NCBI GenBank assembly: GCA_036378175.1
Contig: DASUWY010000014.1
Location: 62,001-126,000, forward strand
Origin: Thermoleophilaceae bacterium
Lineage (GTDB): Bacteria > Actinomycetota > Thermoleophilia > Solirubrobacterales > Thermoleophilaceae
DNA length: 64,000 nucleotides
Reading direction: 5' to 3'
The notes below the pieces were generated by a model that did not search any database, was not told where the DNA came from, and saw nothing but the letters and a program-made list of their open reading frames with translations. The position numbers were made by a program, and so were the translations under genes. Positions 24,275 to 33,485 of the stretch are shown in pieces (position 1 is the stretch's first letter; each line of letters opens with the position of its first letter).

Positions 24275-24637
24275 ATGCACGAGCTCTCCATTGCCGAGGC
24301 GATAGTGCGGATTGCGGCCGCCAACGCAGGTGACCGGCGCGTGTCCAAGGTGGAGCTGAAGGTGGGCCACCTGCGCCAGGTGGTGCCCTCGGCGCTCGAG
24401 TTTGCGTTCGAGCTGGTGGCGCAAGGCACGCCGGTGGAGGGCGCGGCGCTCGAGATCGAGGAGGTGTCGGCGGCGGGTGTGTGCCGTGGCTGCGGAAGAG
24501 AGAACGCACTCGCGGAATTCCCCTTCCGCTGCTCCCGCTGCGGCGGGCTCGACTTTGAAGTGACTCGCGGAGAGGAGCTGCTCGTGGAAGCGCTGGAGCT
24601 CGAGGAGGCCCTGACTACGACAGGAGGGACGAGATGA
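24275..24637 (+). CDS. hypA: Hydrogenase nickel-insertion protein HypA
   Basis: The 120-residue protein begins MHELSIAEAIV, with the nickel-binding Met-His N-terminus, and has the zinc site CRGCG...CSRCGG. It works with the GTPase HypB, encoded 7 kb downstream in the same operon, to deliver nickel to the large subunit. It ends overlapping the hydrogenase small-subunit start (ATGA). Confidence 0.95.
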   Translation: MHELSIAEAIVRIAAANAGDRRVSKVELKVGHLRQVVPSALEFAFELVAQGTPVEGAALEIEEVSAAGVCRGCGRENALAEFPFRCSRCGGLDFEVTRGEELLVEALELEEALTTTGGTR

Positions 24638-25686
24638 CGGCTGAGGCGACCACGCCCAGCGGCGTGGACGAGGTTCACATCCTCTGGATTTCGGAGGGCA
24701 TGAGCTGCGACGGCGACTCGGTTTCGATCACCGCCGCGGGGCAGCCCGGAATCGAGGACGTGGCGCTCGGAGCGATTCCCGGCCTTCCCAAGGTCAACCT
24801 GCACAACAAGGTGCTCTCCCCCACACTCGGCGGCGAGGAGTTCCTGCGCCCGTTCCGCGATGCCGTGAACGACCGGCTCGACGCTCCCTTCGTGCTCGTG
24901 ATCGAGGGCTCTATCCCGAACGAGAAGATCAATGGCGACGGCTACTGGACCTCGTTCGGCAACGACGAAGCCACGGGCGAGCCGCTCACGCTGAACTGGT
25001 GGATCGACCGCCTGGCGCCCAAGGCGTGGGGCGTGGTGGCGATAGGCACCTGCGCCACCTACGGCGGCATCCACGCGATGGCCGGCAACCCCACGGGCTG
25101 CATGGGGCTGGCCGACTACCTCGGCTGGGACTTCCGCTCCGCGGGCGGGCTGCCGGTGGTGAACGTGCCCGGCTGCCCGGTGCAGCCGGAGAACTTCATG
25201 GAGACGCTCACGTGGCTGCTGTATCAGGCCGCCGGGCTGGCGCCGACGATCCCGCTCGACGACCAGCTGCGGCCGCAATGGCTCTTCGGCAAGACGGTGC
25301 ACGAGGGCTGCGACCGCGCGGGCTACTACGAGCAGGGCGACTTCGCCCACGACTACAACTCGCCGAAGTGCCAGGTGAAGATCGGCTGCTGGGGGCCGGT
25401 GGTGAACTGCAACGTGCCGAAGCGCGGCTGGATGGCGGGCATTGGGGGCTGCCCCAACGTGGGCGGCATCTGCATCGGCTGCACGATGCCGGGCTTCCCG
25501 GACAAGTTCATGCCGTTCATGGACGCGCCTCCCGGGGGCGGTCTCTCGTCCGCGATCGAAGGCGTGTACGGACCGTTCATCCGGAAGCTGCGCGGCATCA
25601 CCAACAAGACCATGAACAAGGAGCCGAAGTGGCGGCACAACCGTGACGCGCTGACGACCGGCTACGAGCCCCGCTGGAAGAACTGA
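24634..25686 (+). CDS. hhyS: Group 1h (actinobacterial-type) [NiFe] hydrogenase small subunit
   Basis: The 350-residue protein lacks a Tat signal, as reported for group 1h/group 5 enzymes. The proximal-cluster motif, CxxC in most hydrogenases, reads CDGD (C25, D28) after ISEGMS; Asp thus replaces the second Cys, matching the Asp-ligated proximal cluster described for the Ralstonia eutropha actinobacterial-type enzyme. Other cluster ligands are in GTCATYGG, VPGCPVQPENF, HEGCDRAGYY, KIGCWGPVVNC and GGCPNVGGICIGCTMPGFPD. It transfers electrons from the NiFe site through three Fe-S clusters. Confidence 0.95.
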   Translation: MTAEATTPSGVDEVHILWISEGMSCDGDSVSITAAGQPGIEDVALGAIPGLPKVNLHNKVLSPTLGGEEFLRPFRDAVNDRLDAPFVLVIEGSIPNEKINGDGYWTSFGNDEATGEPLTLNWWIDRLAPKAWGVVAIGTCATYGGIHAMAGNPTGCMGLADYLGWDFRSAGGLPVVNVPGCPVQPENFMETLTWLLYQAAGLAPTIPLDDQLRPQWLFGKTVHEGCDRAGYYEQGDFAHDYNSPKCQVKIGCWGPVVNCNVPKRGWMAGIGGCPNVGGICIGCTMPGFPDKFMPFMDAPPGGGLSSAIEGVYGPFIRKLRGITNKTMNKEPKWRHNRDALTTGYEPRWKN

Positions 25687-25701: not shown

Positions 25702-27489
25702 ATGGCCGTACGAGAGAGAGTCACTCCGGAGGCGGGCAAGCTCGTCGACATGTCGTGGGACCCGATCACGCGCATCGTCGGGAATCTCGGCATCTACACG
25801 AAGATCGACTTCGACAACCGCGAGGTGGTCACGTGCAAGAGCACGTCATCGCTGTTCCGCGGCTACAGCGTGTTCATGAAGGGCAAGGACCCGCGCGACG
25901 CGCACTTCATCACCAGCCGGATCTGCGGCATCTGCGGTGACAACCACGCCGTGTGCTCGTGCTACGCGCAGCAGATGGCGTACGGCGTGAAGCCGCCGCC
26001 GCTCGGAGAATGGATCGTGAACCTCGGCGAGGCGGCCGAGTACATCTTCGACCACATCATCTTCCAGGACAACCTGGTGTTCGTGGACTTCTGCGAGGAG
26101 ATGGTGAGGGCCACCAACCCGAGCGTCTGGCAGAAGGCCGAGAAGGCGGAAGCCCCTCACGCGGAGCTTCACGGCTACCGCACGATTGGCGACATCATGC
26201 GCTCCTACAACCCGTTCACCGGGGAGACGTACAAGGAAGCGCTGCACATGAGCCGGATCGGGCGGGAGATGATCTGCCTGATGGAGGGGCGCCACGTGCA
26301 CCCCTCGACCGTGTACCCGGGCGGCGTCGGCACCGTGGCCACGCCCACGCTCTTCACGGACTACCTCAGCCGGCTGCTCCGCTGCCTCGACTTCATCAAG
26401 AAGGCCGTCGCCATGAACGACGACGTGTTCGACTTCTTCTACGAGGCCATGCCGGGCTACGAGGAGGTGGGCAGGCGCCGGATCCTCCTCGGCTGCTGGG
26501 GCGCGTTCAACAACCCGGACCACGTGGACTACGACTACCGGAACATGAACCACTGGGGGAACGAGATGTTCGTCACCCCGGGTGTGGTCGTGGACGGCGA
26601 GCTCGTGACCCACGATCTGGTGGACATCAACCTCGGGATTCGCATCCTGCTCGGTTCCTCCTACTACGAGGACTGGGCGAACGAGGAGACGTTCGTGGCG
26701 CAGGACCCGCTCGGCAACCCGGTGGACAAGCGCCACCCTTGGAACCAGACCACGATCCCGAGGCCGCAGAAGCGTGACCTCGAGGGCGGCAACTACTCCT
26801 GGGTGATGAGCCCGCGCTGGTACGACAAGCGCACCGGCGACTACCTGGCTCTCGACACCGGCGGTGGCGCGCTCGCCCGGCTGTGGGCCACGGCGCTCGC
26901 GAACAAGGTGGACACGCCGTTCGTGAAGGCCACCGGGCAGAGCGTCCAGATCAGCCTGCCGAAGACTCCGAACACGCCCGAGCAGGTGATCGAGTGGCGC
27001 ATCCCGCAGTGGTCGAACGCGATCGAGAGGGACCGCGCCCGCATCTACTTCGTCGCCTACTCGGCCGGCATGGCGCTGTACTTCCTCGACCGCGCCTTCA
27101 CCGAGCTACGCAATGGCGTGACGAAGGTGTTCGAGGACTTCGACGTGCCGGACGAGGCCATCGGCTGCGGCTTCCACGAGGCGGTCCGCGGCGTGCTGTC
27201 GCATCACCTCGTGATCCGCGACCGCAAGATCGCCAACTACCACCCGTACCCGCCCACTCCGTGGAACGGCAGCCCGACGGACTCCTACGGCACGCCGGGT
27301 CCTTACGAGGACGCGGTGATGGGACAGCCGATCTTCGAGGAGGCCGGCCCGGACGACTTCCGCGGCATCGACATCATGCGTGCCGTCCGGTCGTTCGACC
27401 CGTGCCTGCCGTGCGGCGTGCACATGTACCTGGGCAAGGGCAAGACGCTCAAGACCGTGCACTCGCCGATGTTCGGCCAGCACGGCTAG
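25702..27489 (+). CDS. hhyL: Group 1h (actinobacterial-type) [NiFe] hydrogenase large subunit
   Basis: The 595-residue catalytic subunit has the L1 motif RICGICGDNHAVC (about residues 73-85) and the L2 motif DPCLPCGVH near the C-terminus, together supplying the four Cys that bind nickel and iron. About 21 residues follow the L2 His and should be removed by the maturation protease after nickel insertion. A GGAGGAGG ribosome site precedes its ATG at 25702. Family members oxidise H2 at low, near-atmospheric concentrations and tolerate O2. Membrane attachment is not visible in the protein itself. Confidence 0.96.
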   Translation: MAVRERVTPEAGKLVDMSWDPITRIVGNLGIYTKIDFDNREVVTCKSTSSLFRGYSVFMKGKDPRDAHFITSRICGICGDNHAVCSCYAQQMAYGVKPPPLGEWIVNLGEAAEYIFDHIIFQDNLVFVDFCEEMVRATNPSVWQKAEKAEAPHAELHGYRTIGDIMRSYNPFTGETYKEALHMSRIGREMICLMEGRHVHPSTVYPGGVGTVATPTLFTDYLSRLLRCLDFIKKAVAMNDDVFDFFYEAMPGYEEVGRRRILLGCWGAFNNPDHVDYDYRNMNHWGNEMFVTPGVVVDGELVTHDLVDINLGIRILLGSSYYEDWANEETFVAQDPLGNPVDKRHPWNQTTIPRPQKRDLEGGNYSWVMSPRWYDKRTGDYLALDTGGGALARLWATALANKVDTPFVKATGQSVQISLPKTPNTPEQVIEWRIPQWSNAIERDRARIYFVAYSAGMALYFLDRAFTELRNGVTKVFEDFDVPDEAIGCGFHEAVRGVLSHHLVIRDRKIANYHPYPPTPWNGSPTDSYGTPGPYEDAVMGQPIFEEAGPDDFRGIDIMRAVRSFDPCLPCGVHMYLGKGKTLKTVHSPMFGQHG

Positions 27490-27496
27490 GCCGGGC

Positions 27497-28294
27497 ATGG
27501 ACGAGCGTCGACAGGTCGCGCGGATCGAGGGTCTCCTCGAGGAGATCGAGTCTCTGCCCGATGCCGATGCGCGCGAGAAGGCGACGGATGTGGTTGCCGC
27601 CCTTCTCGATCTCTACGGCGAGGCACTCCGCCGGATCCTCGAGCGCGTGGATGGCGCCGACGCTATGTGTGACGACGAGCTCGTGTCGCAGCTGATGATT
27701 CTGCACGGCCTTCATCCGGTTCCCGTGGAGACAAGGGTGCGCTCGGCGCTCGACGACGTGCGGCCCTACCTCGAGTCGCACGGCGGCGATGTGGAGCTGC
27801 TGGCCATCGAGGAGGGCGTCGCACGGCTGCGGCTGGAGGGAAGCTGCGACGGCTGTCCGTCCTCGGCGGTGACCCTGAAGCTCGCGATCGAGGAAGCGAT
27901 CTACAAGCGCGCGCCGGACATCGCGGGAATCGACGCGCAGGGTGTCGAGCGGCCCCACCTGCTCCAGATTGAGGTGCCGGAGCCGGCATGGCAGCGCGTG
28001 GACGCCGTACCCGAGGGCGCCCCGCTCCTGCGCAGCGTGTCAGGCGAGCTGCTCCTGCTCGTGAACCTGGCCGGCACCCATTACGCCTACCGGCCCACCT
28101 GCCCTTCGTGTGGTGGATCCCTCGGCAACGCCGTGATCAGCGGGACTGAGCTCGAGTGCTCGGGCTGCGGGCATCGCTACGACGTGATCGGGGCCGGGCG
28201 CTGTGTGGACGTGCCCGGCGTGCACCTCGATCCCGTCCCGCTCCTCGGGGGCGAAAGGGATGGCGTGAGGGTCGCGGTGGGAGCGCCGGCGTGA
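27497..28294 (+). CDS. NifU-domain protein with C-terminal Rieske-like Cys4 domain
   Basis: The 265-residue protein has three parts. Residues 1-75 are helical. Residues about 78-155 are a NifU C-terminal domain (HGGDVELL and CDGCPSSAVTLKLAIEEAI) that can carry an Fe-S cluster. Residues about 185-260 follow the pattern of a Rieske domain, but the metal ligands are CPSC and CSGC instead of CxH and CxxH. This could be a redox Fe-S centre or a zinc-stabilised relic. Proteins of this kind accompany group 1h hydrogenases and are thought to take electrons from them. Its gene lies 7 bp after hhyL. Confidence 0.82.
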   Translation: MDERRQVARIEGLLEEIESLPDADAREKATDVVAALLDLYGEALRRILERVDGADAMCDDELVSQLMILHGLHPVPVETRVRSALDDVRPYLESHGGDVELLAIEEGVARLRLEGSCDGCPSSAVTLKLAIEEAIYKRAPDIAGIDAQGVERPHLLQIEVPEPAWQRVDAVPEGAPLLRSVSGELLLLVNLAGTHYAYRPTCPSCGGSLGNAVISGTELECSGCGHRYDVIGAGRCVDVPGVHLDPVPLLGGERDGVRVAVGAPA

Positions 28295-28935
28295 GCGGGA
28301 TCGCCACCCCGCGCCTGCGCAGCCTCGCCCAGCGCGCGTCCGCGGAGCGCGAGTCCGCTGCCGAGCGTTGCGACCTCTGCGCCGCCGAGATCCCGTCGGC
28401 CCACCGGCACCTGCTCGACCTCCGAAGCCGGGAGCTCATCTGCGCCTGCCGGGCATGCTCTCTGCTCTTCGACCGCGAGGCGGCCGGTGCCGGCAACTAC
28501 AGGCTCGTGCCCGAGCGGCGGCTGCGCCTGCCGGGCTTCGAGCTGGACGACATCGCGTGGGAGCGGCTGCGCATCCCCGTGGACATGGCCTTTTTGTTCC
28601 ACAGCTCGGACGCCGGACGGGTGATGGCGTTCTACCCAGGTCCGATGGGACCCACGGAGTCCCTGCTGGAGCTCGACGCGTGGGGCGAAATCGAGCGCGC
28701 CAACCCGGTGCTGGGCACGATGACGCCGGATGTGGAGGCCCTGCTTGTGAATCGCTCGCGCGGCGCTCGCTCGTACTGGCTCGTGCCGATCGACGACTGC
28801 TACGCGCTGGTGGGTGTGATCCGCACGCGCTGGCGCGGGTTCAGCGGGGGGCGAGAGCTGTGGGAGGAGATCGATCGCTTCTTCGCCGCGCTCGACTCGC
28901 AGGCCATCGAAAGGAGACGAGATGAAGCTGGGTAA
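28291..28935 (+). CDS. DUF5947-type hydrogenase-cluster protein with zinc-ribbon-like motif
   Basis: The GTG at 28291 overlaps the upstream stop. The 214-residue protein carries CDLCAAEIPSAHRHLLD and CACRACSLLF, two CxxC pairs typical of a zinc ribbon, then a conserved soluble domain (FHSSDAGRVMAFYPGPMGPT; YWLVPIDDCYALVG). I associate this with DUF5947, a family seen beside actinobacterial [NiFe] hydrogenases. The function is unknown. Its 3' end overlaps the next gene by 14 bp. Confidence 0.75.
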   Translation: MSGIATPRLRSLAQRASAERESAAERCDLCAAEIPSAHRHLLDLRSRELICACRACSLLFDREAAGAGNYRLVPERRLRLPGFELDDIAWERLRIPVDMAFLFHSSDAGRVMAFYPGPMGPTESLLELDAWGEIERANPVLGTMTPDVEALLVNRSRGARSYWLVPIDDCYALVGVIRTRWRGFSGGRELWEEIDRFFAALDSQAIERRRDEAG

Positions 28936-29122
28936 GCCCGAGGTGAAACCCGACGCGCCGTCGCACGTCAAGGGAATCAACGAGGGCAACGCCAGGGGCA
29001 ACTACGAGCGGCAGGCGGGGCACAAGCCCGACGGGACCTCGACCGCCGAGCGCTCCACGGGAGTCAACCCGAAGGCGCGCAACCCCATCGACCCGAGCAT
29101 GCCGAACCTCTCGCCGGGGTAA
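28922..29122 (+). CDS. 66-residue hydrophilic protein of the hydrogenase operon
   Basis: A GGAGACG ribosome site precedes the ATG at 28922, which is inside the end of the previous gene. The product is 66 residues, rich in Gly, Asn, Pro and Lys, without Cys, signal peptide or membrane segment, and probably disordered. Its stop shares a base with the next start. I do not recognise the family. Its tight coupling on both sides argues that it is a real gene, perhaps a small subunit or assembly factor. Confidence 0.7.
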   Translation: MKLGKPEVKPDAPSHVKGINEGNARGNYERQAGHKPDGTSTAERSTGVNPKARNPIDPSMPNLSPG

Positions 29123-29775
29123 TGGCGCTCGCCGACGAGACAGCGGTGGTGGACCTGTCGTTCGGCGTCGAGAGCGCCGCGCCGGTGGACTACGCGGCGG
29201 TGCCGACGCTCGCGCTGCGCCTGCGGGTGGAAAACGCCGGCGCCGCCGAGGTGCGCTCGGTGCTCCTCGACGCGCAGATACAGATCGCCGCAAGGCGGCG
29301 GTCATACGGCAGCGGAGAGCAGGAGCGCCTGCATGATCTGTTCGGCACCTCCGACCGCTGGCGCGACACGCTGCGCACGCTGCCGTGGACGCGTCTGACG
29401 GTGCTTGTGCCTCCGTTCAGCGGCAGCACCGTGGTGGAGCTGAAGGTGGTGTGCAGCTACGACCTCGAGGTGGCGGCGGCCGGCTACTTCGCGGCGCTCG
29501 ACGGCGGCGAGATCCCGCTCGAGCTGCTCTTCAGCGGCACCGTGTTCTACTCGGGCGACGACGGCCGCCTGCAGGCCGAGCGGATCGCGTGGACAAAGGA
29601 GGCCGAGTTCGCACTGCCCGTGAGCGTCTGGCGCGAGACGATGGATCGCCACTTTCCGGACAGCGCCTGGCTCAGGCTCTCGCGACGGTCGTACGACAGG
29701 CTGCGCGCGTACAGGTCCCGCCACGCGTTCGCGAGCTGGGATCAGGCCGTGGACGCGCTGCTGGGGAGCGGGTAG
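29122..29775 (+). CDS. DUF6084-type hydrogenase-cluster protein
   Basis: The 217-residue protein is mostly beta-strand in character, with conserved-looking stretches LFGTSDRW, PWTRLTVLVPPFSG and LELLFSGTVFY, and a helical C-terminus ending FASWDQAVDALL. I place it in DUF6084, which I associate with this hydrogenase neighbourhood, with moderate confidence. It has no Cys cluster and no membrane segment. One possibility is a beta-sandwich binding partner of the hydrogenase or of the next protein, but that is inference. Confidence 0.72.
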   Translation: MALADETAVVDLSFGVESAAPVDYAAVPTLALRLRVENAGAAEVRSVLLDAQIQIAARRRSYGSGEQERLHDLFGTSDRWRDTLRTLPWTRLTVLVPPFSGSTVVELKVVCSYDLEVAAAGYFAALDGGEIPLELLFSGTVFYSGDDGRLQAERIAWTKEAEFALPVSVWRETMDRHFPDSAWLRLSRRSYDRLRAYRSRHAFASWDQAVDALLGSG

Positions 29776-29779
29776 GCGA

Positions 29780-30688
29780 ATGGACGGCGTCAGACGGATA
29801 GCGGACGCGGTGCTGTACGAGGGCTACATCCTTTGGCCCTACCGCAGGTCGGCCCTCAAGAACCAGCGGCGCTTCGCCTTCGGCACGGTCGACCCGGGAG
29901 GCTTCAACCAGACGGAGTGCCTGCTGGAGGAGGGCGAGGACGCCGCGGTCGAGGTGACCGTGCGCTTCCTCCACCTGGTCGAGCGCCAGCTGTGGCGCGG
30001 GGACGAGCCGCTCGACGAGGTGGAGATCGACGGCGAGCTCCACCAGAGCTGGGAGGAGGCGGTGGAGCGTGAGCTTCGCTTCGACTTCGACCCGCGTTCG
30101 CCGGCGCGCGTTCCGGTGGACGTGGCTGCGGGCGTGACGCGCGAGGAACTCGGCGACGGCTGCGCGATGGAGCGCCGCTGGGACGCGCTGCACGGACACA
30201 TCGAGGCAAGCGCCGCGCGCCTGCGTCCACGGCTGCTCCGCCTGCGCGTGCGGACCGAGAACAGCAGCGCGACCGCCGAGTTCCGCTCCGCGCACACGCT
30301 GCTCACGGCGCGCGGCGGCGGCTTTGTCTCGATCACCGATCCGCCGCCGGGGCTGCGCGCGGAGGGGGAGGCCTGCGAGAACGTCGGCCTGTGGCCGGTG
30401 CTGGCAGGCGAGCAGGGCGACCGCTCCACCGTCCTGGCCTCGCCGATCATCCTCCCCGACCATCCGCAGATCGCGCCCGAGAGCCCCGGCGATCTCTTCG
30501 ACGCAACCGAGATCGACCAGATGCTCGTTCTGAACATCCTCAGCCTTACGGACGAGGAGAAGCGGGAGATGCGCTCCGCGGATCCGCGCGCGCGGGAGAT
30601 CCTCGAGCGCACAGAGTCGCTCAGCGGGGAGGAGCTGATGAGGCTGCATGGCACGATCCGCGAGTTCGCACTGGCGAGGCGCCCGTGA
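29780..30688 (+). CDS. 302-residue hydrogenase-cluster protein of unknown function
   Basis: It starts 4 bp after the upstream stop and ends overlapping the protease gene. N-terminal residues ADAVLYEGYILWPYRRSALK are followed by a long acidic soluble domain and a helical C-terminus (DATEIDQMLVLNILSLTDEE; MRSADPRAREILERTESL). There is no signal peptide or metal motif. I recognise it only as a cluster companion. The C-terminal helical part could mediate protein contacts. It is likely needed for assembly or electron transfer of the hydrogenase, by context only. Confidence 0.7.
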   Translation: MDGVRRIADAVLYEGYILWPYRRSALKNQRRFAFGTVDPGGFNQTECLLEEGEDAAVEVTVRFLHLVERQLWRGDEPLDEVEIDGELHQSWEEAVERELRFDFDPRSPARVPVDVAAGVTREELGDGCAMERRWDALHGHIEASAARLRPRLLRLRVRTENSSATAEFRSAHTLLTARGGGFVSITDPPPGLRAEGEACENVGLWPVLAGEQGDRSTVLASPIILPDHPQIAPESPGDLFDATEIDQMLVLNILSLTDEEKREMRSADPRAREILERTESLSGEELMRLHGTIREFALARRP

Positions 30689-31485
30689 GCTACTGGGAAG
30701 AGCTCGAGCGGCCGGCGCCCGACTCGGTGACTGTCTGCGGCGTGGAGCTGCGCCGCGGTGCCCGCGTGCGACTCAGGCCGCAGTCCCGCGGAGACCTGTT
30801 CGACGTGGTGCTGGACGGCAAGGCGGCGGTGGTGGACGCGCTCGAGGAGGACACCGACGGCAACGTGCTCGTGGCGGTGACCGTCGAGGACGATCCCGGG
30901 CGGGACCTCGGCGAACGGAGACAGCCGGGCCACCGCTTCTTCTTCGCCGCCGAAGAGGTGGAGCCGCTCGCGGACGGCGCCGCGCCCGCCGCCGCGCGCA
31001 TCCTCGTGGCGGGCGTGGGCAACGTCTTCCTCGGCGACGACGGCTTTGGAGTTGCGCTCGCGGACCGGCTGGCGCGGGACGAGCTGCCCGCGGGCGTGGA
31101 GGTCGTGGACTTCGGGATCCGCGGGATGGACCTTGCCTACGCGATGCAGGACGGCTATGAGGCGGTGGTCCTGCTCGACGCCACGCCGCGCGGCCAGCCG
31201 CCCGGCACGCTCTACGTGATCGAGGCGGAGGTGGACGACGAGGCCGAGCTCGAGTTCGAGGCTCACGGCCTGGCTCCGGCGAAGGTGCTCGGACTCGTGC
31301 GCGCGCTCGGCGGCCGCCCGCCCCGGACCTTCGTGGTGGGTTGCGAACCGCGGACGCGGATGAGCGTGGACGACGAGGAGCTGGTGGCCGACCTGTCCGA
31401 TCCCGTGCGGCTCGCGCTGCCGGAGGCCGAACGGCTCGTGCGCTCGCTGCTCGCAGACCTGACGACGGAAGGAGGAACCGCATGA
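30685..31485 (+). CDS. [NiFe] hydrogenase maturation endopeptidase with N-terminal extra domain
   Basis: The C-terminal half (about residues 107-266) is a HybD/HyaD-type protease: VAGVGNVFLGDDGFGVALAD with an acidic nickel-sensing residue, DFGIRGMDLAYAM, VVLLDATPRG and the EAHGLAP His. It should clip the large subunit after the L2 motif once nickel is in place. The first 95 or so residues (VCGVELRRGARVRLRPQSRG; LDGKAAVVDALEEDTDG) form an additional beta-rich domain not found in ordinary HyaD proteases. The GTG at 30685 overlaps the preceding stop. Confidence 0.85.
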   Translation: MSYWEELERPAPDSVTVCGVELRRGARVRLRPQSRGDLFDVVLDGKAAVVDALEEDTDGNVLVAVTVEDDPGRDLGERRQPGHRFFFAAEEVEPLADGAAPAAARILVAGVGNVFLGDDGFGVALADRLARDELPAGVEVVDFGIRGMDLAYAMQDGYEAVVLLDATPRGQPPGTLYVIEAEVDDEAELEFEAHGLAPAKVLGLVRALGGRPPRTFVVGCEPRTRMSVDDEELVADLSDPVRLALPEAERLVRSLLADLTTEGGTA

Positions 31486-31586
31486 GCCCGCGCCTGGGCG
31501 CACTCGCGCTGATCCTGGTGGTGCTGGGAGCACTGGCCTGGCAGTGGCCGGAGATCCAGCGCTACCTCAAGGTCAAGCAGATGTAG
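31482..31586 (+). CDS. 34-residue single-span membrane peptide (DUF6893-like)
   Basis: ATG at 31482 overlaps the protease stop (ATGA) and follows a GGAGGA ribosome site (31471-31476). The product is one hydrophobic helix (LGALALILVVLGALAWQW) followed by a short basic tail (RYLKVKQM). I associate it with the DUF6893 small proteins of Actinobacteria. Because none of the other hydrogenase-operon proteins except the nickel transporter has a membrane segment, this peptide might help tether the complex to the membrane. That is inference. Confidence 0.75.
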   Translation: MSPRLGALALILVVLGALAWQWPEIQRYLKVKQM

Positions 31587-31596
31587 GAGGAGGCAT

Positions 31597-32277
31597 ATGC
31601 ACCGAACGAGGGTGAGGGTCGTGGAGGACGCCCTCGACGCCAACAACACGATCGCGCAGGCAAACCGGGCGGACTTCGACCGCGCATCGATCAGGGTCGT
31701 GAACTTCATGAGCGCGCCGGGAGCGGGCAAGACATCGCTCCTCGAGCGAGTGCTGCCGGAACTCGGCGGCATCCGGGTGGGCGTGCTGGAGGGCGACGTA
31801 CAGGGTTCGATGGACGCCGATCGCCTCGCGAGCCTGCACGTGCCGGTGACCCAGCTCAATACGGACGCCGGCTTTGGCGGCGAGTGTCACCTCGACGCCA
31901 ACATGGTGCGCTCGGCGCTTCCGTCGCTGCCGCTCGGCGAGATCGACCTGCTGGTGATCGAGAACGTCGGCAACCTCGTCTGTCCCGCGGAGTTCAGGGT
32001 CGGCGAGGACGCCAGAGTGATGGTCTGCTCGGTGGCCGAGGGCGAGGACAAGCCGCTCAAGTACCCGCTGATGTTCCGCACCTGCGAGCTGGTGCTCATC
32101 AACAAGATCGACCTGCTGCCCCATCTCGACTTCGATATGGGCAAGCTGCTCTACAACCTCGACGCCGTGCATCCCGGAGTGGAACGCATGCTGGTGAGCG
32201 CCCGCACCGGCGAGGGCATCGCCGAGTGGCGCGACTGGCTCGCCGCGATGGTCGAGAGGGTGGAGGCTCCCGCATGA
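31597..32277 (+). CDS. hypB: Hydrogenase nickel-incorporation GTPase HypB
   Basis: The 226-residue protein has a P-loop SAPGAGKTSLLE, switch-region GDVQGSMDADR, the metal-binding Cys/His at GECHLDA, the ENVGNLVCP motif and the base-recognition NKIDLLPH. It lacks the His-rich N-terminal nickel-storage stretch found in some HypB proteins, so storage must occur elsewhere, or it relies on the NiCoT permease at the operon end. It works with HypA. Confidence 0.95.
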   Translation: MHRTRVRVVEDALDANNTIAQANRADFDRASIRVVNFMSAPGAGKTSLLERVLPELGGIRVGVLEGDVQGSMDADRLASLHVPVTQLNTDAGFGGECHLDANMVRSALPSLPLGEIDLLVIENVGNLVCPAEFRVGEDARVMVCSVAEGEDKPLKYPLMFRTCELVLINKIDLLPHLDFDMGKLLYNLDAVHPGVERMLVSARTGEGIAEWRDWLAAMVERVEAPA

Positions 32278-33485
32278 CGGGCGCGCTCGGCATGGACGCG
32301 GTGGGCCAGCGGCTCGACGCGGCACTGGCTGAGCGGACCGAGTCGAACGCGCAGTTCTTCGCCGTCGAGGCCGGGCGCCTGACGTCGGTCTGTCACCTGA
32401 TGGCCGAGCGGTTCGCCCGCGGCGGCAGGCTCGTGGCGTTCGGCTGCACGCCCGCCGCCCGCTCGGACGTGCGTCACATCGCAGTGGAGTTCGTGCACCC
32501 CGTGATCGTCGGGAAGCGGGCGCTCCCCGCGATCGGGCTGGCCGCCGAAGGCGGCCCGCTCCGGCACCAGATCGATCTGCTGGCGCAGCCGGACGACATC
32601 GCCATCGGCTTCGGAACGGAGCCCGACATGTGCTCGGCGATCCGTGTGGCGAGGGAGCGAGGTTGCCTCACGATCGCCTTTTGCGACAGCGGCGCCGAGT
32701 GGGAATTCCGCCCGCCCTCGGGCGACCCGTCGGTGCGGCAGGAGCTCGTGGAGACCCTCTACCACGTGCTCTGGGAGCTCGTGCACGTGTTCTTCGAGCA
32801 CCGGGGCCTGCTCGGTGGCCGCGAGGCACGGCGCGTCCACGACACCGGCGCGTCCGGCTTCCTCTATCCCTTCCTCGCCGAGGCGGAAGACGACCTGGAC
32901 GCGGTGCTCGGCGATGTGCGCAGGTCGGTGGTGGCAAAGGCGGAGGAGACGGCCGCGCTGCGGGCCCAGACGCTCACGGAGAACCGTGACGAGCTCGTGG
33001 CGGCCGGCGCCGCGCTGCGTGAGCGCTTCGACCGCGGTGGCAAGCTGCTCGTCCTCGGGAACGGGGGCTCCGCCACCGACGCGATGGACGCCGTGGCCGA
33101 CTTTCGCTCACCTCCGGATCCCAGCTGGACGCCGCGGCCCGCGATCGACCTCACCGAGGACTCCGCGATTCTCACGGCGATCGCCAACGACATTGGCACC
33201 GATGCGATCTTCTCCCGCCAGATCATCGCGTACGGCAGCGAGGGCGATGCGCTGCTGGCGCTCTCCACGAGCGGCAACTCGCTCAACGTGGTCGAGGCGC
33301 TCGGCGAGGCACGCCGCCGCGGCCTCGTAACGGTGGCGATGGTGGGCTACGACGGCGGCCGCGTGGCGGCGGAGCGCCTGGCCCACCGTGTGGTGGTCAC
33401 GCGCTCCGAGCACATACCGCGCATCCAGGAGGCGCAGGCCAGCGCCTACCACCTGCTGCGCGAGCTCGTGGAGGTCCAGCGGTGA
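32274..33485 (+). CDS. Tandem SIS-domain protein (phosphoheptose-isomerase-like) in hydrogenase operon
   Basis: The 403-residue protein contains two SIS-like halves. The C-terminal half (about residues 220-395) has LLVLGNGGSATDAMDAVADF and LALSTSGNSLNVVEAL, the phosphosugar-binding loops of GmhA. The N-terminal half (about 10-190) has matching strands (LVAFGCTPAARSDVRHIAVE; DIAIGFGTEPDMCSAIRVA) but not the Ser/Thr loop, so it is degenerate. The ATG overlaps the hypB stop. A phosphoheptose-isomerase-like gene is, as I recall, a frequent companion of group 1h hydrogenases; its job there is unknown. Confidence 0.8.
   Translation: MTGALGMDAVGQRLDAALAERTESNAQFFAVEAGRLTSVCHLMAERFARGGRLVAFGCTPAARSDVRHIAVEFVHPVIVGKRALPAIGLAAEGGPLRHQIDLLAQPDDIAIGFGTEPDMCSAIRVARERGCLTIAFCDSGAEWEFRPPSGDPSVRQELVETLYHVLWELVHVFFEHRGLLGGREARRVHDTGASGFLYPFLAEAEDDLDAVLGDVRRSVVAKAEETAALRAQTLTENRDELVAAGAALRERFDRGGKLLVLGNGGSATDAMDAVADFRSPPDPSWTPRPAIDLTEDSAILTAIANDIGTDAIFSRQIIAYGSEGDALLALSTSGNSLNVVEALGEARRRGLVTVAMVGYDGGRVAAERLAHRVVVTRSEHIPRIQEAQASAYHLLRELVEVQR

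Follow-up and report, generated by a model that had tools for sequence, protein, structure and literature searches.

What do the conserved genes between the structural genes and the maturation protease gene of a group 1h [NiFe]-hydrogenase locus contribute to the enzyme? The question is raised by a 64,000-nucleotide stretch of DNA from a Thermoleophilaceae bacterium (assembly GCA_036378175.1, contig DASUWY010000014.1, positions 62,001 to 126,000 of the forward strand; hereafter the window). Here a sequence-only reading had placed four consecutive genes without assigned role at 28291–30688, between hhyE and the protease gene, and had suggested an undescribed assembly or electron-routing module. 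All four open reading frames are indeed present on the plus strand, head to tail from hhyE to the protease gene, and their ends overlap or abut as stated, ranging between an overlap of 14 bp and a gap of 4 bp. They encode a DUF5947 protein of 214 amino acids (GTG start, 28291..28935), a Gly/Pro/Asn-rich protein of 66 amino acids termed p66 (28922..29122), a DUF6084 protein of 217 amino acids (29122..29775) and a protein of 302 amino acids termed p302 (29780..30688). Two parts that also belong to the block had been overlooked, namely a domain at the start of the protease gene, here called X (30709..30984), and a DUF6893 microprotein at 31482–31586. Observed linkage, gene order, shared open frames, invariant residues and a hydrophobic helix led us to propose, with about an even chance of being correct, that the block is an accessory module of group 1h enzymes with a maturation half, a redox or assembly half and a membrane tether.

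Linkage was examined in one draw of 296 Actinomycetota genomes plus 14 named control genomes and in GTDB contigs, which were scanned using an alignment of DUF6084 as bait. The scan gave 272 relatives, of which the best 80 constitute the 80 named loci; given this bait, hhyL loci without DUF6084 cannot appear in this set. Models made from the window genes were iterated over 123 loci, collinearity was scored on eight genes or domains from hhyS to the protease, and the hhyL tree comprised 95 rows. DUF6084 was found in 27 of the 296 genomes, DUF5947 in 26 and p302 in 28 at E ≤ 1e-6; at E ≤ 0.01 the number for p302 was 31, the three additional genomes (G018, G033 and G053) having partial matches with E 0.002–0.004. 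Neither DUF6084 nor DUF5947 was detected in the 14 control genomes. Large-subunit matches with at least 60% identity to that of the window occurred, among the matches listed, in 30 genomes, some as short fragments; within this list they were present in 24/27 DUF6084 genomes and 25/26 DUF5947 genomes (Fisher p 1e-26 and 3e-30, respectively, uncorrected for kinship). The DUF6084 or DUF5947 genomes outside this list (G189, G216 and G290) have loci cut by a contig end, and every one of the 28 p302 genomes either belongs to the 30 listed or carries DUF6084. Tight coupling to hhySL is thus supported, as each genome with DUF6084, DUF5947 or p302 has such a large subunit or a cut locus, and wide occurrence of the genes without hydrogenases was not seen in Actinomycetota. 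Six of the 30 listed genomes have no DUF6084: two (G128 and G171) carry DUF5947, p66 and p302, G227 is affected by a contig end, G107 and G130 have only short large-subunit fragments, and G184 is discussed below.

The 80 named loci belong, by their record titles, to Actinomycetota, Chloroflexi, Acidobacteria, Armatimonadetes, Eremiobacterota and one metagenome-assembled genome (MAG) of Proteobacteria. They contain p302 in all 80, DUF5947 in 79, hhyL, the NifU part of hhyE, X and the protease in 77 each, DUF6893 in 72 and p66 in 26. In the three loci without hhyL (L145, L155 and L177), DUF6084 lies at most 1.9 kb from the contig end. The order from hhyS to the protease is collinear in 79/80 loci. 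The models of DUF5947, p66, DUF6084, p302, X and DUF6893 gave no match at E ≤ 0.01 in 152,275 control bases consisting of the remainder of the window and 30 helicase loci. Among plasmid records, DUF5947 and p302 are found together in 12, ten of which also contain DUF6084; a tblastn search of plasmids with a p302 member returned the same 12 records and one match at E 7. Four of the 12 records were examined: three are annotated hydrogenase loci and the fourth, from Streptantibioticus (L125), is unannotated and contains, according to our models, p302 joined to X, hhyS, hhyL, NifU, DUF5947 and p66. DUF6084 is missing from L125 and the related L113 and L114, which otherwise have the module. The block is therefore real and beyond chance; its members are conserved accessory genes linked to group 1h [NiFe]-hydrogenases.

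Some loci deviate in composition. L047 (8633–10324) carries NifU and DUF6084 in one open frame, joined via a low-complexity RDRD stretch, which may be a fusion or an assembly fault; no DUF5947 was found in this genome. Two hhy loci look decayed: L208 (G150) has kept hyp genes, protease and DUF6893 together with short hhyS and p302 fragments, and L211 (G195) hyp genes, protease, DUF6893 and p66. The locus models found no hhyL, DUF5947 or DUF6084 in either.

Which half of the module do p302 and X belong to? The X-HyaD fusion gene of the window (30685..31485, plus strand) has about 100 codons ahead of its protease domain, and these constitute domain X. The part behind X is a hydrogenase maturation endopeptidase of the HyaD/HybD type (PF01750 with 44.4 bits versus a cut-off of 23; TIGR00072 with 114.3 versus 47.45), which shares fold and family with HybD, HycI and HyaD and differs from them by the additional N-terminal X or p302-X in its frame. 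The window p302 is homologous to the N-terminal part of a 476-amino-acid Cupriavidus necator protein adjoining the DUF6084 of that species. A phmmer search of six proteins with X of the window matched the C-terminus of the longer p302 proteins of C. necator (E 8.5e-29), Methylocystis (4.2e-25) and a mycobacterial plasmid (3.4e-20). In the 80 loci, X belongs to the same frame as p302 in 47 and to that of the protease in 24, stands alone in four and shares one frame with both in two; the three loci in which it was unseen are all on cut contigs. The triple frame p302-X-protease, found in L153 and L155 from related MAGs, is free of stops between its parts, with a possible inner start before the protease. 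On the hhyL tree, omitting rows without X, the state of X changed at least five times. L158, a locus from Terriglobia, has p302, X and the protease grouped on the opposite strand, and DUF5947 and DUF6084 remain beside hhyS-hhyL-hhyE. Domains that swap partners usually function together. Because X swaps between p302 and the protease, the three most simply form one unit, and on these sequence data they look like a unit for maturation of the large subunit. An assembly role, one of the two functions suggested initially, is thereby favoured for p302, which shares X with the protease.

A structure model of the L153 p302-X-protease protein, based on 92 rows, reached a predicted local distance difference test score (pLDDT) of 85.9 and a predicted template modelling score (pTM) of 0.64, with linkers below pLDDT 50. 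Foldseek and VIA-align placed its end on maturation proteases (5ttx, Z 19.4; HybD 1cfz, Z 18.4). Foldseek also returned small barrels, namely PetP (2n5u, E 0.016, TMt 0.66, 77 columns; 7r0w_V, E 0.06, TMt 0.74; both with probability 1.00) and the beta subunit of nitrile hydratase (E 0.1). The search output comes without ranges; the small-barrel matches presumably fall on X, which would then be an SH3-like barrel. PetP of the cyanobacterial cytochrome b6f complex and the nitrile hydratase subunit are small fold matches with weak E-values and share no context with the hydrogenase locus. Neither p302 nor p66 matched any Pfam or NCBIfam family at E ≤ 1; a weak Pfam match to Phage_TAC_7 was seen in 5/44 p302 members (best E 0.003). 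Searches of PDB with p302, DUF5947 and DUF6084, as single proteins and as profiles, gave no significant sequence match, and profile comparisons of DUF5947, DUF6084 and p302-X-protease among themselves yielded probabilities below 1%, so that their kinship is unsupported. A role of p302 as quinone carrier like CoxG was dropped for want of support.

The p302 part of the L153 model pointed to a relative outside the hydrogenases. Its only matches among the 50 listed were two entries of the DISARM helicase DrmA: model residues 28–245 superposed on residues 151–423 of 7s9w_A (Z 10.7, 174 aligned, root-mean-square deviation 3.7) and residues 25–382 on 7s9v_A (Z 10.8, 191 aligned). In an hmmscan against PADLOC, the L153 protein matched DrmA with E 5e-4, and 22 of the 44 p302 members matched the DrmA model at E ≤ 1 (best 2.6e-8); no other of the 5027 PADLOC models matched any of the 44 at this threshold. 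Of ten members scanned singly, three matched DrmA, with residues 182–304 of L143 on DrmA 207–323 (E 2.5e-6) and L146 and L149 at about E 3e-5. In whole genomes, where few candidates per genome were scored, the DrmA model matched in 77/296 Actinomycetota and 8/14 controls; the listed matches fall nearly all on the helicase part, and a single listed match, to the p302 of G264 (model 125–348 of 1018, E 8.5e-5), begins ahead of model position 300. In 198 genomes of the phylum of G296 no DrmA match reached E 1e-20, nor did any in the controls, so this search is no proof of absence. Tentatively, the p302 family seems to share a domain with the N-terminal half of DrmA; for the DrmA part concerned, the authors of PMC9142583 found no structural relatives in 2022. 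p302 itself is not a helicase: it lacks the tandem RecA domains of DrmA, has only 302 amino acids and no Pfam family at E ≤ 1, and it sits in a hydrogenase operon. Because of its likely kinship to this part of DrmA, p302 is taken as a scaffold.

How could a soluble enzyme reach the membrane? The DUF6893 gene (31482..31586, plus strand; PF21833, 27.4 bits versus a cut-off of 24.6) follows a strong ribosome-binding site, GGAAGGAGGAACC, and encodes 34 amino acids with one hydrophobic stretch, predicted to be a single helix, and a basic tail ending in RYLKVKQM (WPEIQRYLKVKQM). Its KD19 hydropathy is 1.95 versus at most 1.45 in the remaining window proteins of the block, those of hhyS and hhyL included. 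The iterated model found DUF6893 in 95/123 loci overall. Of the 94 loci in which both genes are present, 93 have it on the strand of the protease, 64 times after and 29 times before it, with a median domain gap of 69 bp and a largest gap of 529. The C-terminal flank of the helix is more basic than the N-terminal one in 77/97 cases (mean charge +2.9 versus +0.8), which suggests a cytoplasmic C-terminus. In Methylocystis (L126), DUF6893 was found by a looser pattern; the C. necator match is weak (20.7 bits, E 5e-4) and not part of the PLSDB gene table, which is incomplete. A tblastn search with DUF6893 gave no match, the query probably being too short.

At E ≤ 0.1 the Pfam model of DUF6893 matched in 83/296 genomes, the weak matches being mostly short pieces of long frames. 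Matches above the Pfam cut-off occurred in 25/296 genomes and in no control genome; 21 of these 25 carry DUF6084, and 18 of the 21 are among the large-subunit genomes listed. The four without DUF6084 are G150, with hhyS and p302 fragments and a protease, G195, with protease and p66 beside hypF (both look like hhy remnants), G269, whose match sits at the end of a contig, directly ahead of hypA, and is accompanied by a faint trace of p66, and G214, whose match falls inside a frame of 795 codons. In SolV, hhyS and hhyL have no membrane helices, yet the activity is membrane-associated with a partner described as unknown, and membrane association is said to be important for the high affinity of group 1h enzymes (PMC7174314). 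For this reason DUF6893 is a direct candidate, on its sequence features, for the membrane tether of group 1h enzymes; no anchor is named in the open-access literature consulted on them. HucM of the group 2a enzyme Huc is a non-catalytic protein connecting a soluble hydrogenase with the membrane (PMC10017518); it has 188 residues and forms a tetrameric stalk, unlike the single helix of DUF6893, and the likeness concerns the proposed role without implying kinship.

Two DUF6893 paralogues were noted: that of L210 (2134–2250), a locus without any hydrogenase model match, ends in PDFQRYQQLRDM, and that of L214 (8545–8643), with hhyS 3.5 kb away on the other strand, ends in PDFQRYKQLRDM.

The remaining half of the module contains putative metal proteins. 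The DUF5947 protein (PF19372, 254.4 bits versus a cut-off of 25) has its C. necator homologue in the DUF5947 gene that occupies the position of PHG067. Its C27, C30, H38, H40, C51, C53 and C56 are invariant in 109–110 of 110 rows, with one row gapped at four of the positions. The initial description as a zinc-ribbon DUF5947-type protein was right about the family, but seven invariant ligand-type residues (five Cys, two His) go beyond a plain four-Cys ribbon; the site is probably metal-binding. HhyE (27497..28294, plus strand), which adjoins hhySL as in other group 1h loci, combines a NifU-type domain (PF01106) with a second domain termed Rieske by Pfam (PF00355, 24 versus a cut-off of 20.3 in the window). 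C117 of HhyE is kept in 81/107 rows and C120 in 103/107. The second domain, found in 46/80 loci, has four Cys in two CxxC pairs in 66/66 rows. A true Rieske [2Fe-2S] cluster is bound by two Cys and two His in CxH..CxxH; with Cys pairs instead and no His at the ligand places in the window protein, this assignment was rejected. The HhyE proteins of C. necator and Methylocystis are short and without CxxC. Since the DUF5947 residues are invariant and HhyE Cys are lost in some species, DUF5947 appears, among the likely metal proteins in the block, to be the most constant one.

The window DUF6084 protein (PF19562, 280.3 bits versus a cut-off of 25) is predicted with confidence (pLDDT 92.4, pTM 0.85) to be an Ig-like beta sandwich with C-terminal helices. 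Fold searches matched IrmA (Z 9.7 over 97 residues), WxLIP, LEA14-type proteins and ApaG. Naming a function from these matches was rejected, as they are common to many Ig-like sandwiches.

p66, which is probably disordered, is an optional part limited to one hhyL clade on the tree. It was found in 38/123 loci and 29/95 tree rows; together with L146 these rows make up a single clade, with support 98, to which the window belongs and which requires one change. Nine p66 loci are not on the tree, among them L143 from Chloroflexi, and a second origin is possible. Of the 38 p66 loci, 33 have X joined to the protease or standing alone, and in two X was unseen; the other three (L113, L114 and L125) have p302-X upstream of hhyS and no DUF6084. 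The notion of a four-gene module therefore stands as regards linkage but is too simple, given the restriction of p66 to one clade, the lack of DUF6084 in these three loci and the separability of p302-X-protease in L158. In L143, p66 lies downstream of DUF6893 and not after DUF5947.

The surroundings are those of a hydrogenase operon. On the plus strand, hypD, a hypE-type AIRS protein and a gene that we take, from its position, to be hypA precede hhyS (24634..25686; PF14720, PF01058) and hhyL (25702..27489; PF00374); HhyS has no long hydrophobic stretch (maximum KD19 1.19). HhyL contains both group 1h motifs, TSRICGICGDNH and SFDPCLPCGVH, as defined in PMC5364354, followed by a 21-residue tail past DPCLPCGVH. 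Its sole PDB sequence match at E ≤ 1e-50 is 5aa5 HofG, and its closest relatives among the collected loci are from Solirubrobacterales and Solirubrobacteraceae (top identity 91%). Overlaps amount to 4 bp for hhyE/DUF5947, 14 bp for DUF5947/p66, 1 bp for p66/DUF6084 and 4 bp for p302/protease, with a 4 bp gap between DUF6084 and p302. The GC content at third codon positions of the four frames (0.88–0.93) compares with 0.84–0.95 in their neighbours. After the protease gene and DUF6893, the run continues with the maturation gene hypB (31597..32277; TIGR00073), a 403-residue SIS-domain protein (32274–33485), hypF and a NicO nickel transporter. The SIS-domain protein recurs in 53/123 loci and has no obvious role in hydrogenase making. 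In L124 (5420–6475), L126 (5499–6578) and L127 (5122–6177), the genes matched by the HhyS model, which occupy the small-subunit place, are labelled 'hydrogenase expression protein HypE' by their records.

How much of this was known? The genes had been reported as PHG066–069 of unknown function beside the Cupriavidus hydrogenase AH (PMC4377017), and conserved hypotheticals, hhaABC, upregulated with the enzyme, are described in the group 1h operon of Thermomicrobium roseum (PMC6776052), so that "undescribed" does not hold; the proposal of PHG067 as electron acceptor (PMC6883350) also predates this analysis. The likeness to hhaABC is by description. The C. necator H16 AH cluster (pHG1, PHG064–070) has the same order, hhyS-hhyL-NifU-DUF5947-DUF6084-p302-protease, with PHG067–069 as counterparts of the module frames; it differs from the window by X fused to p302, the lack of p66, an HhyE without CxxC and the weak DUF6893 match. 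Hhy of Mycobacterium smegmatis is described as a group 1h enzyme with HhyE and MSMEG_2717 as in the window; hhyE is needed for its activity, and MSMEG_2717 is homologous to PHG067, the proposed electron acceptor (PMC6883350). The whole loci analysed here from other Mycobacterium have p302-X and no p66, unlike the window. The open-access literature yielded no role for DUF6084, p302 or DUF6893 and no text naming DUF5947, DUF6893 or PF21833; DUF6084 is mentioned in the context of aurodox biosynthesis. As far as these searches tell, the following is new: X changes partners and can share one frame with p302 and the protease; p302 has a likely relation to DrmA; Cys are lost unevenly from HhyE, unlike the constant site of DUF5947; p66 is confined to one clade on the tree; and DUF6893 is a constant partner. 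The genes are of an ordinary kind, hydrogenase accessory genes, with unexpected parts.

In the module that we propose, p302 would be a docking scaffold and X a small barrel adaptor, both acting as a unit with the HyaD-type protease; p302 and X would present the hhyL precursor to the protease, which removes the C-terminal tail after nickel insertion. HhyE, DUF5947 and DUF6084, the last as a non-catalytic Ig-like binding protein, would sit on or next to HhyS, where the putative metal site of DUF5947 most probably would serve to build the Fe-S relay or to take up its electrons. DUF6893, with its helix in the membrane and its basic tail in the cytoplasm, may tether the otherwise soluble enzyme, and p66 would be an optional addition of one clade. 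All these biochemical roles, and metal binding by the invariant residues, are inferred. A bolder version, in which p302 is a stand-alone relative of a DrmA chassis that carries a PetP-like barrel and the protease as a processing platform, and DUF6893 the tether of atmospheric-H2 hydrogenases, is offered tentatively, as a possibility that we would rather doubt than rely on.

Could the block instead route electrons? HhyE, DUF5947, DUF6084 and p302 might be permanent subunits passing electrons from HhyS to menaquinone, as HucM helps in Huc. The position of the genes after the structural genes, the requirement for hhyE in M. smegmatis together with the proposal of PHG067, to which MSMEG_2717 is homologous, as electron acceptor, and the invariant five-Cys/two-His site argue for this; the constant DUF5947 site fits the acceptor proposal and equally an assembly role. 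We nevertheless consider it unlikely, as nitroblue tetrazolium fails to compensate the loss of hhyE (PMC6883350), the C. necator enzyme has been solved (5aa5) and sequence searches with DUF5947, DUF6084 and p302 matched no chain in PDB, and X, common to p302 and the protease, points to maturation. A module for maturation only, in which DUF5947 and DUF6084 are small-subunit chaperones analogous to HoxR, HoxO and HoxQ of group 1d and p302-X serves the large-subunit protease, appears quite unlikely. It would explain the p302-X-protease frame and the plain Ig-like sandwich predicted for DUF6084, and a rubredoxin-related protein aids maturation in group 1d (PMC6883350); in L158, however, DUF5947 and DUF6084 stayed with hhyS-hhyL-hhyE when p302-X-protease moved, which suits structural partners too. 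That the block is kept together merely by transfer of the hydrogenase cluster, without a common mechanism, is very improbable: the cluster does occur on plasmids in Cupriavidus, Methylocystis, Mycobacterium and Streptomyces relatives, but the order conserved in 79/80 loci over several phyla, the short distances and the repeated changes of the X frame speak against this reading.

Several observations weigh against the proposed module. Neighbourhood and fusion are no proof of function. In G184 (L255, 659–2718) a whole hhyS is accompanied by an hhyL truncated at position 306 of 575, with no other module gene in the remaining 3.2 kb of the contig and no DUF5947, DUF6084 or p302 in the genome; this locus is probably broken. 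The DUF6893 model had no match in 8/80 loci, of which L130, L149 and L181 are at contig ends and L159 (Pseudonocardia) has one by the looser pattern; it was still unfound by model and pattern in L142, L146, L176 and L200. Six of the 27 DUF6084 genomes lack DUF6893 above the cut-off, and some genomes have additional copies outside the hhy locus: two in G189, one in G092 on the opposite strand, 3.5 kb upstream of hhyS, and one in G205 on a separate contig, next to hypF. As to DrmA, seven of the ten members scanned singly, all p302-X proteins, and the window p302 itself gave no match (E ≤ 1 for the seven), and no full-length DrmA for comparison was found in the genome searches described. C. necator has DUF5947, DUF6084, p302-X and a weak DUF6893 match, although PMC7174314 describes its enzyme as cytoplasmic and of low affinity. 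Some group 1h enzymes may do without the module, as the text of PMC5364354 on the cluster of Methylacidiphilum SolV, an active group 1h enzyme, names just hhyS, hhyL and hupD.

What does the block mean for group 1h enzymes? The exchange of X points to p302-X as a partner of the large-subunit protease, and the invariant site singles out DUF5947 as a probable metal protein. High-affinity hydrogenases are a main sink for atmospheric H2, and DUF6893 provides a concrete candidate for the tether that may hold group 1h enzymes at the membrane.

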